Positions 8,467 through 40,933 of a DNA stretch of 64,000 bases are shown here, piece after piece (within the stretch, counting starts at the first letter, position 1; every line of letters starts with the position of its first letter). The notes under the pieces are model-generated. The model worked only from the letters and a program-made list of their open reading frames with translations, was not told the origin of the DNA and made no database searches. A program made the translations under genes and the position numbers. Source of the stretch: Nitrospirota bacterium (GTDB lineage Bacteria; Nitrospirota; Thermodesulfovibrionia; Thermodesulfovibrionales; UBA6898); the NCBI GenBank assembly GCA_003252075.1, contig QKDO01000102.1, positions 1 to 64,000 of the forward strand, written 5' to 3'.

Positions 8467-9234
8467 ATGCTGACATTTTCTCTGCAATCCGGAAGCAACG
8501 GCAACTGCATCTATGTGGAAACAGGTGGAGTAAGACTCCTGTTTGACGCGGGGATAAACGGCGTCCAGGCCGAAAAAAAGCTGGCAGCACGGGGACGCTC
8601 GATCCGAGATATCGACGCCGTCATCATTTCCCATGATCACGGTGACCATATCAGGCATGCCGGCATCTATCAGAGGAAGTACGGACTTCCCCTCCACGTA
8701 ACCCGCAAGACTCTGGCAATCGCTGAGCAGCGCCATTCCCTTGGCAAACTCCATGATGTGCATCACTTTTATCCCGGCGGCTTCATGGACTTTGGGACCG
8801 TCAGGGTCCATGCCATCCCCACGCCGCATGACGGTGCAGACGGATCAGCCTTCGTCATTACCTCCGGGAGGAAACGGCTCGGCATCATGACCGACCTTGG
8901 ACATGTATTCGATGGCCTGGCAGAAACGATCGCTACCCTCGACGCAGTGTTTATCGAGAGCAATTACGATCCTGGCATGCTCGCGCGAGGGCCCTATCCT
9001 GCATTCCTGAAGAAACGCATCACAGGGCCCGAGGGCCATCTTTCGAACGCCGAGGCAGCGGAACTGCTGAAGCAGGCATCAGCCGGAAGGTTGAAGTGGG
9101 CATGTCTGGCGCACCTGTCGGAGCAAAACAACAAGGCATCTCTGGCAGTAGAAACGCACCGGAAGGTCCTTTTTCCCGGCCTGCCGCTCTATATCGCGAG
9201 CAGGTACGCCTCTTCCGACATTCTGAAAATCTGA
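8467..9234 (+). CDS. YycJ/WalJ-type metallo-beta-lactamase-fold nuclease
   Basis: A 255-residue MBL-fold protein of the YycJ family, known in Bacillus as a DNA 5'-3' exonuclease acting in mismatch repair. Metal motif SHDHGDH occurs around residue 57, with further ligand regions at PTPHDGAD and TDLGHV. Family-typical ESNYDPGML, GHLSNAEAAELL and LAHLSEQNN follow. The N-terminus LQSGSNGNCIYVE is also characteristic. It is monocistronic here, with a promoter only 11 nt before the ATG. The DNA-repair role is inferred from the family. Confidence 0.85.
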   Translation: MLTFSLQSGSNGNCIYVETGGVRLLFDAGINGVQAEKKLAARGRSIRDIDAVIISHDHGDHIRHAGIYQRKYGLPLHVTRKTLAIAEQRHSLGKLHDVHHFYPGGFMDFGTVRVHAIPTPHDGADGSAFVITSGRKRLGIMTDLGHVFDGLAETIATLDAVFIESNYDPGMLARGPYPAFLKKRITGPEGHLSNAEAAELLKQASAGRLKWACLAHLSEQNNKASLAVETHRKVLFPGLPLYIASRYASSDILKI

Positions 9235-9430
9235 CCCCCAGAGGCATGTGCTGGCGACTCTGCAAAGAATGTCGGGGCATACTGCTGAAGTCTGCAGCGG
9301 GTATTTGACCGTTAGCTGAATTTTCTTCTCACAGACTGCCGAATAAGGTACAATTTGATTACATCATGCGTCCCGCTCTCCTGTCATCGTGCAGTATACC
9401 AAGGATTGCGGAATAGAGGGGTGCAGAACG

Positions 9431-10930
9431 GTGAAAAATATACTCAGAGAGATGAATCCCAAACGGAAATTTACCATCATCCTCCTGATGATCCATTTTG
9501 TTGCGCTCCCGGCAATATCGGTGACCACCTATGTCATTGTAAAGCAAAATGCTATCCGCGCAGTGTATAATACCGGTCGCCTGTATCTCGCCGCCATAGG
9601 TTCGATAAAGCATTACGTATCAGAGGAATTACGGCCCGTCTTTTACCGGGAAATGCCCGGCAGGTTCATTGTGCAGGGAATGTCTCGCTCATATGTCTCG
9701 TCTCAGATTGCGTTACGGGTCATGCATGATCTGCCTAATTATATCTACAAGAATGCTTCTCTGAATCCGAAAAAAAAGCCTCAGAACATGGCTGACACCT
9801 TTGAGAGCGGTATTATTGAACTCTTCGAACGAAACAGGATGAACAAAGAATGGCGCGGTTTAGTTGAAAAGGACGGGAACGATTATTACGTCATTGCAAG
9901 GCCTGGAGATCCTTTCAGCGCAGATTGTCTCAGGTGTCATGGTGACCCGAGGTCAGCGCCACCCGAACTGATAGCCGTCTACGGAACGACTGCCGGATTT
10001 CATCATAAGGTGAATGATCTCGTCGATGCAACGTTTGTGTATATTCCCATAGGCGTGCCCCTGTTGGCAGCTCGAAAGATCGTGGCTTATTTTGTGGGAA
10101 GCTACATCCTGGTCGGCACGGTGATCCTTATGGTCATCAACGTAAGGTTCTCGAAGCTTTATAACGAGATAGATGCCGAAAAGCAGATGGTTGAGAATAT
10201 CAACCTCGAAGTCCTCAACATGAATCATGATATGGAATCGATGATATCAGAGCGGGCCATGAACCTGCTGGCTCTCAGTGTGGCTGACCGGGTGAGAAAC
10301 CCGGCGACAGCCGTAGCCGGCACGATAAAACGACTTCTGAAGCGGGAAGACCTTTCACCGCAGATCAGGGAAAAACTCGCATTCATCGTACCCGAGGCGG
10401 ACAAGCTCGAGGCCATTGTGAGCGACTATGAATCGATCCTGAAGACCCGCCATATCATGTTCAAGATGGAAGACCTGAATGAGATGATAGGGAGCATTTT
10501 GCCGCTCATAGAAGAAGAGCGGATGATCAGGGATGTCACGATATCGCTGAGGCTTTCGGAAATGCCGCCGCGGTGCATGGCAAACCGGCAGCTTCTCCGG
10601 GTGGCGATCCTCCATGTTCTGAAAAATGCCTTGGAGGCAGTTCCTGAGGGCGGAAGTATTACGGTCGAGACCGGCGTTGAAGACGACCATGTTTTCATCG
10701 GTGTGGCAGACAGCGGCAAAGGAATTCCACCTGAAGATATGAAGAAAATATTCGACCTCTTCTACAGCATGAAGAGGCGCAGAATAGGAATGGGCCTTCC
10801 CATAGTAAAACAGATCATGGAAGAGCACAGGGGCATCATAACCGCGGAAAGCGCCCCGGGCAGGACAGTTTTCAGGCTATCCTTTCCATCGCGATGGTCT
10901 GAGAAAGAACTTACGGACGGAACAGGGTAA
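9431..10930 (+). CDS. Membrane c-haem (DUF3365/Tll0287-like) sensor kinase homologue lacking the phospho-accepting His
   Basis: About 499 residues. An N-terminal membrane helix (KRKFTIILLMIHFVALP) is followed by a periplasmic Tll0287-like DUF3365 domain with a c-type haem motif CLRCHGDP at residue ~166. A second helix (VAYFVGSYILVGTVILMV) and a cytoplasmic coiled coil come next. The dimerisation segment reads SVADRVRNPAT where an active kinase has AHEVRNP-like sequence, so Asp (~286) stands where the phosphorylated His is expected. The ATPase domain looks intact: VLKNALEAVPEGG (N box), DSGKGIP (G1) and MGLPIVKQI. I chose GTG 9431 because AGAGGGG lies ~9 nt upstream; GTG 9389 and ATG 9452 are alternatives. 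No response regulator is adjacent. Confidence 0.85.
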   Translation: MKNILREMNPKRKFTIILLMIHFVALPAISVTTYVIVKQNAIRAVYNTGRLYLAAIGSIKHYVSEELRPVFYREMPGRFIVQGMSRSYVSSQIALRVMHDLPNYIYKNASLNPKKKPQNMADTFESGIIELFERNRMNKEWRGLVEKDGNDYYVIARPGDPFSADCLRCHGDPRSAPPELIAVYGTTAGFHHKVNDLVDATFVYIPIGVPLLAARKIVAYFVGSYILVGTVILMVINVRFSKLYNEIDAEKQMVENINLEVLNMNHDMESMISERAMNLLALSVADRVRNPATAVAGTIKRLLKREDLSPQIREKLAFIVPEADKLEAIVSDYESILKTRHIMFKMEDLNEMIGSILPLIEEERMIRDVTISLRLSEMPPRCMANRQLLRVAILHVLKNALEAVPEGGSITVETGVEDDHVFIGVADSGKGIPPEDMKKIFDLFYSMKRRRIGMGLPIVKQIMEEHRGIITAESAPGRTVFRLSFPSRWSEKELTDGTG

Positions 10931-11166
10931 TGCATACGCCTTGTCTGGACTGGTTTTTTATTCGGCGGAAATGAGAGCGGTTCCAGCTCCTGCCTGATGT
11001 AAAGGTGCACGCATGATGGCGGAGGGCCACAACGTGGGCATGACGCGATAGCGAGCATGCGCTGACAGCAGGAACTCTTCCTGCTCGGACTGTACGGGAC
11101 TTTCTGAGGACAGCGATATTGAGCATATTGAAATAACGTGATTTTTTTTCAGGGGGAGATACTTTC

Positions 11167-11241
11167 ATGAGCACCAGGAAAGGAGCAATCTTGATTTTCC
11201 GGTGCAGTATTACGTGCATGACGTTCACAGGAGGATTCTGA
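11167..11241 (+). CDS. 24-codon upstream frame coupled to the cytochrome c gene
   Basis: ATG at 11167, preceded by a strong GGGGGAG site, opens a 24-residue frame (MSTRKGAILIFRCSITCMTF...). Its TGA stop shares its last base with the ATG of the cytochrome c gene (TGATG). The peptide resembles no known family. The tight stop-start overlap suggests a leader peptide for translational coupling, or the remnant of a longer gene. The rest of the 310-bp gap from 10931 shows nothing recognisable. Confidence 0.35.
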   Translation: MSTRKGAILIFRCSITCMTFTGGF

Positions 11242-11666
11242 TGAAGAAAACTGCAGGGTGCGATCATGATCGTGCGCAAAAGCAAAGGGCAAGAATCAGC
11301 GCTGTGATGTTCGGGGTGATGATTGCGTCCATACTGGTCACGTATGCTCACATCGGTGGAACAATATGGGCCGGCAACCAGCCACCTGCCAAGCCTGAGG
11401 TGACCTGCCCCTATAGGGGCGATGCCGCTGCGATAGCCGAGGGCAAGAAATTCTTCGACCGGAACTGTGCAGAATGTCACGGTGACGGCACGGGCGGAAG
11501 CGGTCCTGACCTTACGGACAATGAGTGGCTTTGCGGCGGTTCCGACGCCCAGATCTTCGCGACCGTATCTAATGGCCGGCCAGGGGGCATGCCGTCATGG
11601 AGCAGTGACCTGAAGGATGACGAGATCTGGAAGATCATCGCTTTTATCAGGAGCCTCAAGAGATAA
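11241..11666 (+). CDS. Membrane-anchored or exported class I cytochrome c
   Basis: A 141-residue electron carrier. A basic N-terminus is followed by one hydrophobic segment (VMFGVMIASILVTYAHI), which is either a signal peptide or an uncleaved anchor. The cytochrome c domain then has one haem motif CAECHG at about residue 76 and the axial Met likely in GRPGGMPSW. The C-terminal helix DDEIWKIIAFIRSLK is typical of CcoP/cbb3-associated or free class I cytochromes. AGGAGG lies 5 nt before the ATG at 11241. It follows the c-haem sensor gene on the same strand by about 300 bp, so that sensor may report on the same redox pool (inference). Confidence 0.88.
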   Translation: MKKTAGCDHDRAQKQRARISAVMFGVMIASILVTYAHIGGTIWAGNQPPAKPEVTCPYRGDAAAIAEGKKFFDRNCAECHGDGTGGSGPDLTDNEWLCGGSDAQIFATVSNGRPGGMPSWSSDLKDDEIWKIIAFIRSLKR

Positions 11667-11735
11667 TAGCGGATCATCTTTTTTCCGACATGGGAACAAG
11701 GGAGTTATGCGTGCGTTGTGCGATAGGCTGTTCGG

Positions 11736-12611
11736 GTGAACCGTCCGATGACTAAGACAGTAAGCCTGGCAGCTTCCTATCTTAACCTTGCAGTATTTGT
11801 ATGCCTTGCCGCTGTTCTCATAGCATCAGCTGCCGGGGCGGACATACCGTATTCCGCGATGATCATCCAGGTGTTCCTGGGAGGGTTCATCGGGGGCGTT
11901 ACCAACAAGATCGCGATCACGATGCTGTTCGAGCGGAGATGGTTCCTGCCGGGTTCGGGGGTGCTTCTTAAGGAACACCACAGAATTGTCCATTCACTTG
12001 CCCGGACCGTTGAGTCCCACCTTATCAGCAGTGAAATGATACAGGAAGAGCTTCGGAAGCTGCTTCAGCCGGTGAAGATCGAGAAGGCCGAAAAGATCCT
12101 GAACAGCGTGATCAACGAGTTTCGGGATGACGTTATCGGCTACCTGAGATCAGAGAATGTCCGGCACGAGATCACCGATGGCCTGAGGAATAATCTGGGA
12201 TTTCTGGGAAAATTTCTTAATGTAACGCGCATCAAGGAATACGAGGAGATGGCCGATACTATCATTGCGGAGCTGGAATCGAGGCTTTCCGGTTTCAGGG
12301 TGTCGCGACAGATGCTTGCAAAGACCATTCAACGGATTGGCACACTTGAAGATTTTCTCTTCATGCCGCGCAACGAGATCCTTATGAAGCATTATCAGAC
12401 AGATAGGTCTCTCATGCAGCTTCTGTTCGAAAAGATAAACATCAGGGAGATGGTGATCGACCGGCTTTCCACGTACAAGCCTTCGCAGGTGAGGGATATC
12501 ATCGAGGAGAATATCCGGGCGCATCTGCTCTGGCTTGAGGTTTTTGGTGTGATCCTGGGGATGCTCTTTACCGGTGTTCTCTTGCTGGTCATGAATGCAT
12601 TTTCTCGCTGA
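11736..12611 (+). CDS. DUF445 family membrane protein
   Basis: A 291-residue protein with N-terminal helices (NLAVFVCLAAVLIAS and AMIIQVFLGGFIGGVTN), a long soluble helical middle, and a C-terminal helix (VFGVILGMLFTGVLLLVM). The segment GGFIGGVTNKIAITMLF is the signature of DUF445 proteins (YheB in Bacillus), whose biochemical role is unknown. The start is GTG 11736 or ATG 11748; neither has a strong ribosome site. It follows the cytochrome c gene by 69 bp and may be in its transcript. No terminator was recognised downstream. Confidence 0.85.
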   Translation: MNRPMTKTVSLAASYLNLAVFVCLAAVLIASAAGADIPYSAMIIQVFLGGFIGGVTNKIAITMLFERRWFLPGSGVLLKEHHRIVHSLARTVESHLISSEMIQEELRKLLQPVKIEKAEKILNSVINEFRDDVIGYLRSENVRHEITDGLRNNLGFLGKFLNVTRIKEYEEMADTIIAELESRLSGFRVSRQMLAKTIQRIGTLEDFLFMPRNEILMKHYQTDRSLMQLLFEKINIREMVIDRLSTYKPSQVRDIIEENIRAHLLWLEVFGVILGMLFTGVLLLVMNAFSR

Positions 12612-39676: not shown

Positions 39677-40933
39677 ATGGATGTCCATCGAATCCAGTTC
39701 CTGCTGTTCACCGCGATTTCCCTGCTGATCTTCATCATGATGATCGTCATTATCAAGAACCTTCTTGCTTATCACAAGAAACAAGCGGAACAAGATCATA
39801 AAGATACTACCCAAGTCGGCTTTGTTGTTGATACATTCCACGAGCTGGTCTCGAAGCTCAAGGAAAAGGAGCGAGAGCTTGAATTCCTGAGAAGCAGAGC
39901 TGAGGAGCGCGCCTCGTCGATCGAGGTCTACAATGAGAACATCTTTCAGTCTGTGCCGAGCGGTGTGGTGAGCTTTGATCAGGACCTCAGGATAACGCGG
40001 CTGAATGCCGCTGCAATGAAGATTCTCGGTCTCCGGGAAGAGGTTGTCGGCAGGGGCCATGCAGAGATATTCCAGAGCCCCCTACGCGATATGATTGCTG
40101 AACGAAAGGTCATGGGAAGGGTTGAGACTGCTTATACAGATGGCAGCGGTAAGAGGCTGTGGATCGGGCTTGCGCTTTCTCCGCTGAAAGACAGCATGGA
40201 CACCATTATCGGCCAGCTCCTTGTCTTTACCGATCTTACTGAATTGAAGGCTTTCCAGTCGCAGCGGGAGCTGAGGGATAGACTCTCGACTCTGGGCGAG
40301 ATGTCCGCCGGCATCGCCCATGAGCTGCGAAATCCTATGGGAGTCATTTCCGGCTATACCAAGATCCTTTCGAGAAAAGTTGATGATGCGCTGAAACCTG
40401 CGGTAATGGCGATCAACGGGGAGATCGATGTCATGAACAGGATTATAACCGACTTTCTTACCTTTGCCCATCCTGCTGAACCGGTTTTGGGAAATGTCGA
40501 CCTTGCGGCTCTTGCAGAAAGCTGCATCGAAATGCTCGATGACGCTGCGCGAAAGGTCATTTTGCCGGCTGACGTATCGTGCCTTCCGGTGATCCGGGGC
40601 GATGAGGTCCTGCTCAGGCAGGCATTGACGAATCTGTTCGTAAACGCTGTTGAGGCCATGCCTGACGGCGGATCGATCAGTATCTCATGTTCCATGAACG
40701 GGCCGAACGCTCTCCTCTGTATAACAGATACCGGACATGGCATACCGGAAAACATTAGAGACCGTATATTCCTTCCTTTCTATACGACAAAGGAGCGCGG
40801 TACGGGGCTTGGGCTTGCAATCGTCCATAAGATCATCGTCTCGCACGGCGGATCGATCAGGGTAGAGTCCTCTTCAGGGGGCACGGCATTCCTCATTACC
40901 CTTCCCAAAGAGATAATCCTCAGCAGCATCTGA
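39677..40933 (+). CDS. PAS-containing sensor histidine kinase
   Basis: A 418-residue kinase. One N-terminal membrane helix (FLLFTAISLLIFIMMIVII) is followed by a coiled coil, a PAS domain (VPSGVVSFDQDLRITRLNAA), HisKA with intact H box GIAHELRNPMGVISGY, and an HATPase domain (NLFVNAVEAMPDGG, DTGHGIPENI, GTGLGLAIV). No periplasmic domain is present, so sensing is cytoplasmic or at the membrane. It lies 30 bp after pilD on the same strand. No response regulator is adjacent, although NtrC-type partners of such kinases are common in this kind of organism. Confidence 0.9.
   Translation: MDVHRIQFLLFTAISLLIFIMMIVIIKNLLAYHKKQAEQDHKDTTQVGFVVDTFHELVSKLKEKERELEFLRSRAEERASSIEVYNENIFQSVPSGVVSFDQDLRITRLNAAAMKILGLREEVVGRGHAEIFQSPLRDMIAERKVMGRVETAYTDGSGKRLWIGLALSPLKDSMDTIIGQLLVFTDLTELKAFQSQRELRDRLSTLGEMSAGIAHELRNPMGVISGYTKILSRKVDDALKPAVMAINGEIDVMNRIITDFLTFAHPAEPVLGNVDLAALAESCIEMLDDAARKVILPADVSCLPVIRGDEVLLRQALTNLFVNAVEAMPDGGSISISCSMNGPNALLCITDTGHGIPENIRDRIFLPFYTTKERGTGLGLAIVHKIIVSHGGSIRVESSSGGTAFLITLPKEIILSSI

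Follow-up and report, generated by a model that had tools for sequence, protein, structure and literature searches.

The sensor gene and its domains

From position 9389 to 10930 of the window (the whole stretch of 64,000 nucleotides that was analysed), the forward strand is a single open frame encoding a putative sensor protein. The alignment of homologues favours the GTG start codon at 9431 over the one at 9389, which would give a protein of 513 aa. The features of the gene and its downstream neighbour are as follows.

9431 to 10930, plus strand: gene for a putative sCache_heme pseudo-histidine kinase, 499 aa from GTG at 9431, stop at 10930
9467 to 9544, plus strand: probable first membrane helix, read by eye
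9542 to 10048, plus strand: Tll0287-like (sCache_heme) domain, PF11845, presumably outside the membrane
9926 to 9940, plus strand: CLRCH c-type haem-binding motif; Cys, Cys and His are invariant in 19 haem-type proteins
10073 to 10141, plus strand: probable second membrane helix, read by eye
10265 to 10429, plus strand: DHp (HisKA-like) region, residues 293 to 347, a sub-threshold HisKA match
10280 to 10303, plus strand: altered H box VADRVRNP, with Asp (GAC) at 10286 to 10288, Arg at 10289 to 10291 and the H+4 Asn at 10298 to 10300
10586 to 10888, plus strand: HATPase_c (ATP-binding) domain with N, G1, F and G2 boxes, from Pfam and the homologue alignment
11241 to 11666, plus strand: downstream cytochrome c (CBB3 type) gene, from Pfam Cytochrome_CBB3

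The protein runs from a membrane helix through the Tll0287-like domain, a second membrane helix and a linker to the DHp region and the HATPase_c domain. Pfam assigns the Tll0287-like domain with 93.1 bits (cut-off 24.1) and HATPase_c with 72.4 bits (cut-off 26.4), and HisKA reaches 18.2 bits, under its cut-off of 26.9. The gene is the sole Tll0287-like match in its own genome (E <= 0.001). The ATPase residues N413, D441, G443, G445, G467 and G469 (numbered from 9389) are invariant in 19 aligned haem-type proteins. The DHp helix reads SVADRVRNPAT, and in a profile alignment its VADRVRNP stretch pairs, with no gap, with VAHEIRNP of ZraS (9jfj), VAHEIRNP of 3a0r and ISHEIRNP of KinB (3d36), so that the Asp sits on the phospho-accepting His of the solved kinases and the Arg on the adjacent Glu. 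The haem site, the intact ATPase domain and the unusual H box that the sequence-only reading had described are all borne out by Pfam, codon positions and alignment.

In terms of known classes, the protein has the N, G1, F and G2 boxes of HisKA histidine kinases, the H+4 Asn of HisKA phosphatases, and the profile match and CXXCH motif of sCache_heme (Tll0287-like) proteins. A His in the H box, an acid after it and a HisKA match above threshold, by which a canonical HisKA kinase is recognized, are all missing. The phospho-acceptor is gone and the DHp and ATPase layout is kept across orthologues, as in a pseudo-histidine kinase. An AlphaFold model built from five sequences was set aside, with a mean pLDDT of 44.2, mostly below 50, and values of 70 to 84 in parts of the ATPase region. 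The window also holds a second sensor kinase gene, at 39677 to 40933, with an ordinary H box (SAGIAHELRNPMG).

Conservation of the aspartate

A search of 176 genomes of the order returned 17 other full-length haem-type relatives with 45 to 98% identity. Each of them carries the Asp, including those of the same genus from the Nitrospiraceae MAGs UBA6898 (98% identity) and UBA6905 (87%). One further haem-type relative elsewhere in the class (L143) carries it too. The search of the order with the window protein also returned many relatives of the core with other N termini, and all 29 loci kept from it besides our own read [VIL]AD[RK]xRNP. A profile of the core (A3, 34 rows) was built from Asp-type members with the motif columns included, which biases it slightly toward Asp. 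Against 150 relatives it gave 56 matches of 256 to 397 bits in 44 genomes, with the next score at 185 bits. Against the 229 genomes of a class that we take to be Thermodesulfovibrionia, it gave 114 matches, again of 256 to 397 bits, in 84 genomes, followed by the same drop to 185 bits; here 12 candidates were scored per genome, the window's own genome was outside the 229, and the matches were counted by hand. Because the profile holds only two motif columns of the biased kind, that bias cannot explain a gap of 71 bits.

The H boxes of all 114 class matches were read: 114 have Asp, 113 have the H+4 Asn (the lone exception is Gly, in L161) and 112 have the H+3 Arg. Asp persists in L288, L289 and L161, each of which has lost either the H+3 Arg or the H+4 Asn. 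Below the gap, at 185 bits or less, 16 of the next 17 matches were read (all but G141:C4), and each has His-Glu. The earlier proposal of a non-canonical subfamily that does not autophosphorylate on His is thus upheld by the Asp in every member read, and a close homologue with His, which would have pointed to a local mutation, is absent among them. It is true that GAC is a single base away from CAC. An ordinary kinase altered by a point mutation or a sequencing error can nevertheless be dismissed for all practical purposes, as the 114 relatives in 84 other genomes all share the Asp and include the proteins with 98% and 87% identity.

A first set of 88 Asp-type proteins (78 of a main clade and 10 of a protoglobin clade) was used for finer comparison. 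Asp is present in 88 of 88, although 70 of them came from a DNA pattern for the motif and owe their Asp partly to this selection. The H+1 residue is never acidic: it is R in 56, K in 26, and N, S and Q in 2 each. The ordinary kinases aligned with them have His in 34 of 34 cases, followed by E (28), D (5) or G (1). HATPase_c was matched in all 88, and the ATPase boxes of the main clade are intact apart from 2 of 60 proteins that lack the G2 glycines. Of the 48 HATPase_c matches in the window's own genome, 32 were read: the 30 ordinary ones all have His, and the Asp carriers are the window gene and a gene with a protoglobin domain (L088), which are also the only two sites of the DNA pattern in this genome.

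The pattern matched 82 of 295 Nitrospirota genomes. The motif was rejected as proof by itself, since the sites read outside the class (L058 to L087, 30 of about 40) include no kinase, and for this reason the homology-ranked 114 serve as the main count. Within the class, 77 pattern sites were read; 49 passed a strict filter for ATPase motifs, another 21 lacked a single motif and were retained once read, and the remaining 7 (L098, L102, L115, L123, L134, L135 and L137) were dropped. The dropped L115 resembles a genuine member cut by the end of its contig.

Searches in the following sets beyond the class added no member to the family. The best profile score in 145 Omnitrophota genomes was 171 bits, and the five best matches read have His. 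Six further genomes (two Omnitrophota, Bacteroidetes, Bacilli, Treponema and Synergistaceae) reached at most 148 bits; of their six best loci, four have His and in two the H box was not discernible. A plasmid search, judged by identity only, returned 28 records, all below 60% identity and at 30 to 32% among the 15 matches listed. The 22 motif-pattern matches on viral contigs include no relative.

Domain architectures and phylogeny

The sensory inputs vary across the family, comprising haem Cache, 7-TM, receiver, PAS and dCache domains. Pfam (E <= 0.001) finds, besides the HATPase_c domains, Response_reg in 23 of the 88 proteins, Tll0287-like in 19, Protoglobin in 10, PAS in 9, HAMP in 2, and dCache_1, ABC_sub_bind and MASE3 in one each. 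For the comparisons by type, proteins were sorted by patterns into haem (19), receiver (16), protoglobin (10) and other (43), a sorting coarser than Pfam in which some of the "other" proteins hold receivers. According to loose patterns, 11 of the 16 receiver-type proteins have the phospho-Asp motif, 15 the Thr and 15 the Lys. A 7-TM-like N terminus is common (L091, L094, L095, L099 and others), and L095, the one scanned, has no Pfam match there. In the five genomes of family f8 (L124, L126, L128, L129 and L154), part of a 7-TM sensor is encoded by an open frame of its own, immediately upstream of the one that holds the core. At one locus, L151:5955-8879, an Asp-type module, PAS and an ordinary histidine kinase follow one another in a single polypeptide.

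The protoglobin clade consists of L088:6538-7686 (in the window's own genome, G000:C44), L089, L090, L120 to L122, L125, L127, L138 and L139. In all ten the G1-box Asp is replaced by Asn; the H-box Asp is also present in all ten, by selection, as this clade came from the motif pattern only. In a tree made without the two H-box columns, the main Asp clade (78 rows) has an SH-aLRT support of 99 and the protoglobin clade (10 rows) of 100. The His rows lie on one side of a branch in both trees, with a support of 23 (122 rows) and 76 (56 rows), and a single origin of the two Asp clades is neither shown nor rejected.

Gene neighborhoods

Fifteen of 20 ordinary kinase genes of this genome adjoin a receiver gene on the same strand, compared with 5 of 83 Asp-type genes (Fisher p about 4e-10, a value that overstates independence as the genes are related). 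The two samples differ in origin, the 20 controls being drawn from the best-scoring of the 46 other kinases of this genome and the Asp-type genes from many genomes. Moreover, the ORF caller lost 5 of the 88 Asp-type genes, and contigs that end close to some of the genes reduce the number of receiver neighbours counted for this group. No such neighbour was found for the 17 haem and the 9 protoglobin genes; it was found for 1 among 42 genes of the other type and 4 among 15 of the receiver type.

Other neighbours recur. One or more of the genes for SPFH (15), VTT/DedA (12) and NfeD (7) proteins, named from Pfam on one or two members per cluster, occur upstream, no more than three genes away, in 16 of the 83 contexts, of both haem and 7-TM type (L043, L044, L048, L093 to L096, L099, L104, L108, L110, L124, L126, L128, L129 and L147). 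The distance from the end of the VTT gene to the Asp-type gene is -10 to +15 bases in 10 of the 11 cases measured and 92 bases in L094. Five of the 19 haem-type genes (L050, L052, L055, L056 and L057) are preceded, at a distance of one or two genes, by a K+ channel gene, in three cases with a multihaem cytochrome c gene in between. Protoglobin-type genes precede ECF sigma and zf-HC2 genes at three loci of the genus (L088 to L090; Pfam on L088 only). Directly downstream of the 7-TM Asp-type gene in L091, L092, L108, L110 and L114 is a small conserved protein (96 to 131 aa as called), for which the one member scanned has no Pfam match.

The window gene has neither the SPFH/VTT/NfeD nor the K+ channel neighbours, and a weak scan of the plus strand from 9200 to 11800 found no terminator-like site. 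The gene that starts about 310 bases past it is indeed a cytochrome c gene (Cytochrome_CBB3, 68.5 bits), as had been noted from the sequence. The link to a periplasmic redox state that was drawn from it is not supported, since a tblastn search located this gene close to no more than 3 of the 19 haem-type genes, and these 3 belong to one genus, that of the window (some of the 19 stretches end at contig ends). It was rejected as a general partner and is probably a genus-level neighbour outside the system. The MBL-fold neighbour of the window gene was likewise found only in the three loci of the genus.

A transmitter without the phospho-accepting His

What might such a protein sense and do? PMC12889525 describes DUF3365/Tll0287 domains fused to signalling modules as haem-c Cache domains with the properties of NO sensors, reports covalent haem c and a stable NO complex for a relative, and characterizes the stand-alone copies as redox-related in appearance. 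By analogy, nitric oxide is the most likely ligand of the haem type and is better supported as the signal than a general redox state. Binding of the ligand to the haem-c Cache domain would then be passed through the two membrane helices to the DHp helix bundle. Because the His is replaced by Asp and the catalytic acid by Arg or Lys, neither autophosphorylation nor phosphate transfer is expected from an Asp-type protein. The module may instead bind response regulators phosphorylated by other kinases and remove their phosphate, depending on ligand and nucleotide. We tentatively favour this description, of an ATP-binding pseudo-histidine kinase that acts on response regulators encoded elsewhere and is most likely a switchable phosphatase. 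The low number of adjacent receiver genes speaks for it as well. Both the loss of kinase activity and the phosphatase activity are inferred from sequence. Since the ATP-binding domain and the H+4 Asn are kept, phosphatase action on regulators phosphorylated by others would be the most likely role.

Published work bears on this phosphatase role in both directions. The acid at H+1 is required for kinase but not for phosphatase activity in CrdS, HK853 and two homologues of NtrB, and the Asn or Thr at H+4 for phosphatase activity only (PMC3510030). DrBphP, a HisKA phosphatase, needs ATP; its native H+4 residue is Glu, and Asn at this position abolished its activity (PMC8292422). The His contributes to HisKA phosphatase activity but is not essential, and the distribution of missing His residues is argued not to fit phosphatase action as the general role of pseudo-kinases (both from PMC12632262). 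The H+4 Asn could also have been kept for the structure of the DHp domain. In other kinases, certain positions after the H box choose the regulator. Among 70 members these positions vary (H+7 is T in 40 and A in 19; H+11 is G in 30, A in 12, W in 11 and C in 8), so one common partner is unlikely.

The module may read phosphorylated receivers made elsewhere rather than act on them, as does DivL, the best studied pseudo-histidine kinase. According to PMC4211667, DivL has Tyr at the His site, shows no kinase or phosphatase activity and binds DivK~P, for which its H+3 Arg (R553) is needed, and this Arg is kept in 112 of the 114 proteins here. The fusion of an Asp-type module to an ordinary kinase in L151, and the same-strand kinase gene adjoining 6 of 15 receiver-type members, fit a reader of this kind. 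However, DivL binds ATP weakly (PMC4211667), whereas the ATP-binding motifs are near-invariant in the main Asp clade, and a kinase gene on the same strand adjoins none of 17 haem-type genes (for L044 there is one on the opposite strand). We regard a pure reader as rather unlikely, if still worth serious attention.

Less probable again is that the target lies outside two-component signalling, being for example the product of a neighbouring gene, and is phosphorylated or remodelled by the ATPase domain in the manner of GHKL anti-sigma kinases. The recurrent SPFH, VTT/DedA and NfeD genes, the K+ channel genes before haem-type genes and the ECF sigma and zf-HC2 genes after protoglobin-type genes would all be candidates for such a target, with the Asp-type protein as its ATP-driven partner. 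Yet these neighbours change between subgroups while the module stays constant, the window gene has none of them, and the DHp helix and the Asn, superfluous for a bare GHKL kinase, have been kept. The most far-reaching idea is that the invariant Asp is itself the phospho-acceptor, in an autokinase that forms an acyl phosphate with the help of the mostly basic next residue. The Asp in all 114 proteins, retained also in L288, L289 and L161 despite their loss of one of the other residues, and the kept ATPase motifs agree with this. On the other side, the acid that takes part in the phosphorylation of His has been lost, and we know of no HisKA protein that autophosphorylates on Asp, so we consider it highly improbable. 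If it were true, a whole family would have switched its DHp domain from phosphohistidine to phosphoaspartate, a new kind of relay with haem/NO, 7-TM, receiver, PAS, dCache and perhaps protoglobin inputs.

Comparison with known systems

The family shares with HisKA kinases of the NtrB, ZraS and AtoS kind (ZraS 9jfj; 3a0r) the DHp-HATPase layout, an H box that aligns without gaps, the R-N-P residues and the N, G1, F and G2 boxes. It differs from them in having Asp for His, Arg or Lys for Glu, and seldom an adjacent receiver gene. The window protein has the domain and the CxxCH motif of the sCache_heme sensors; in PMC12889525 the histidine kinase fusions of these sensors are treated as classical outputs, and the excerpts of it do not mention a missing His. 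A HisKA-based census put the missing His sites at 722 of 76,471 (PMC12632262). At least 60 of our 88 members miss even E 0.001 with Pfam HisKA, and censuses of this kind would therefore tend to overlook them. In the open-licence literature, full-text searches found no paper with the H-box motif strings of the family, and searches on pseudo-, degenerate or atypical histidine kinases gave papers on DivL and ChrS and many unrelated ones, with none on the Asp-type family among those listed.

DivL of Caulobacter (PDB 4q20) resembles the family in its replaced phospho-acceptor, its kept DHp and ATPase fold and its H+3 Arg. It is no close relative, with 74.6 bits in the profile alignment, below many ordinary kinases, and it is a cell-cycle protein with Tyr550 and weak ATP binding (PMC4211667), whereas the Asp-type family has Asp and many inputs. 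DrBphP is alike in the mode proposed here, as it has no kinase activity and is an ATP-dependent phosphatase, but its phospho-accepting His is retained, the H+1 residue is His and the H+4 residue Glu, and its input is a phytochrome (PMC8292422).

Pseudo-histidine kinases are known from DivL, and the conserved variant with Asp and a basic residue behind many sensors appears to be new. In the literature examined they are mostly single cases such as DivL; here, one double replacement is fixed throughout a clade whose 114 genes, spread over 84 of the 229 class genomes, are joined to various kinds of sensor and mostly lack a neighbouring receiver gene. A familiar component of signalling is apparently put to an unusual use in these cells, and the clade offers ready material for the question of how a transmitter works when it passes on no phosphate.
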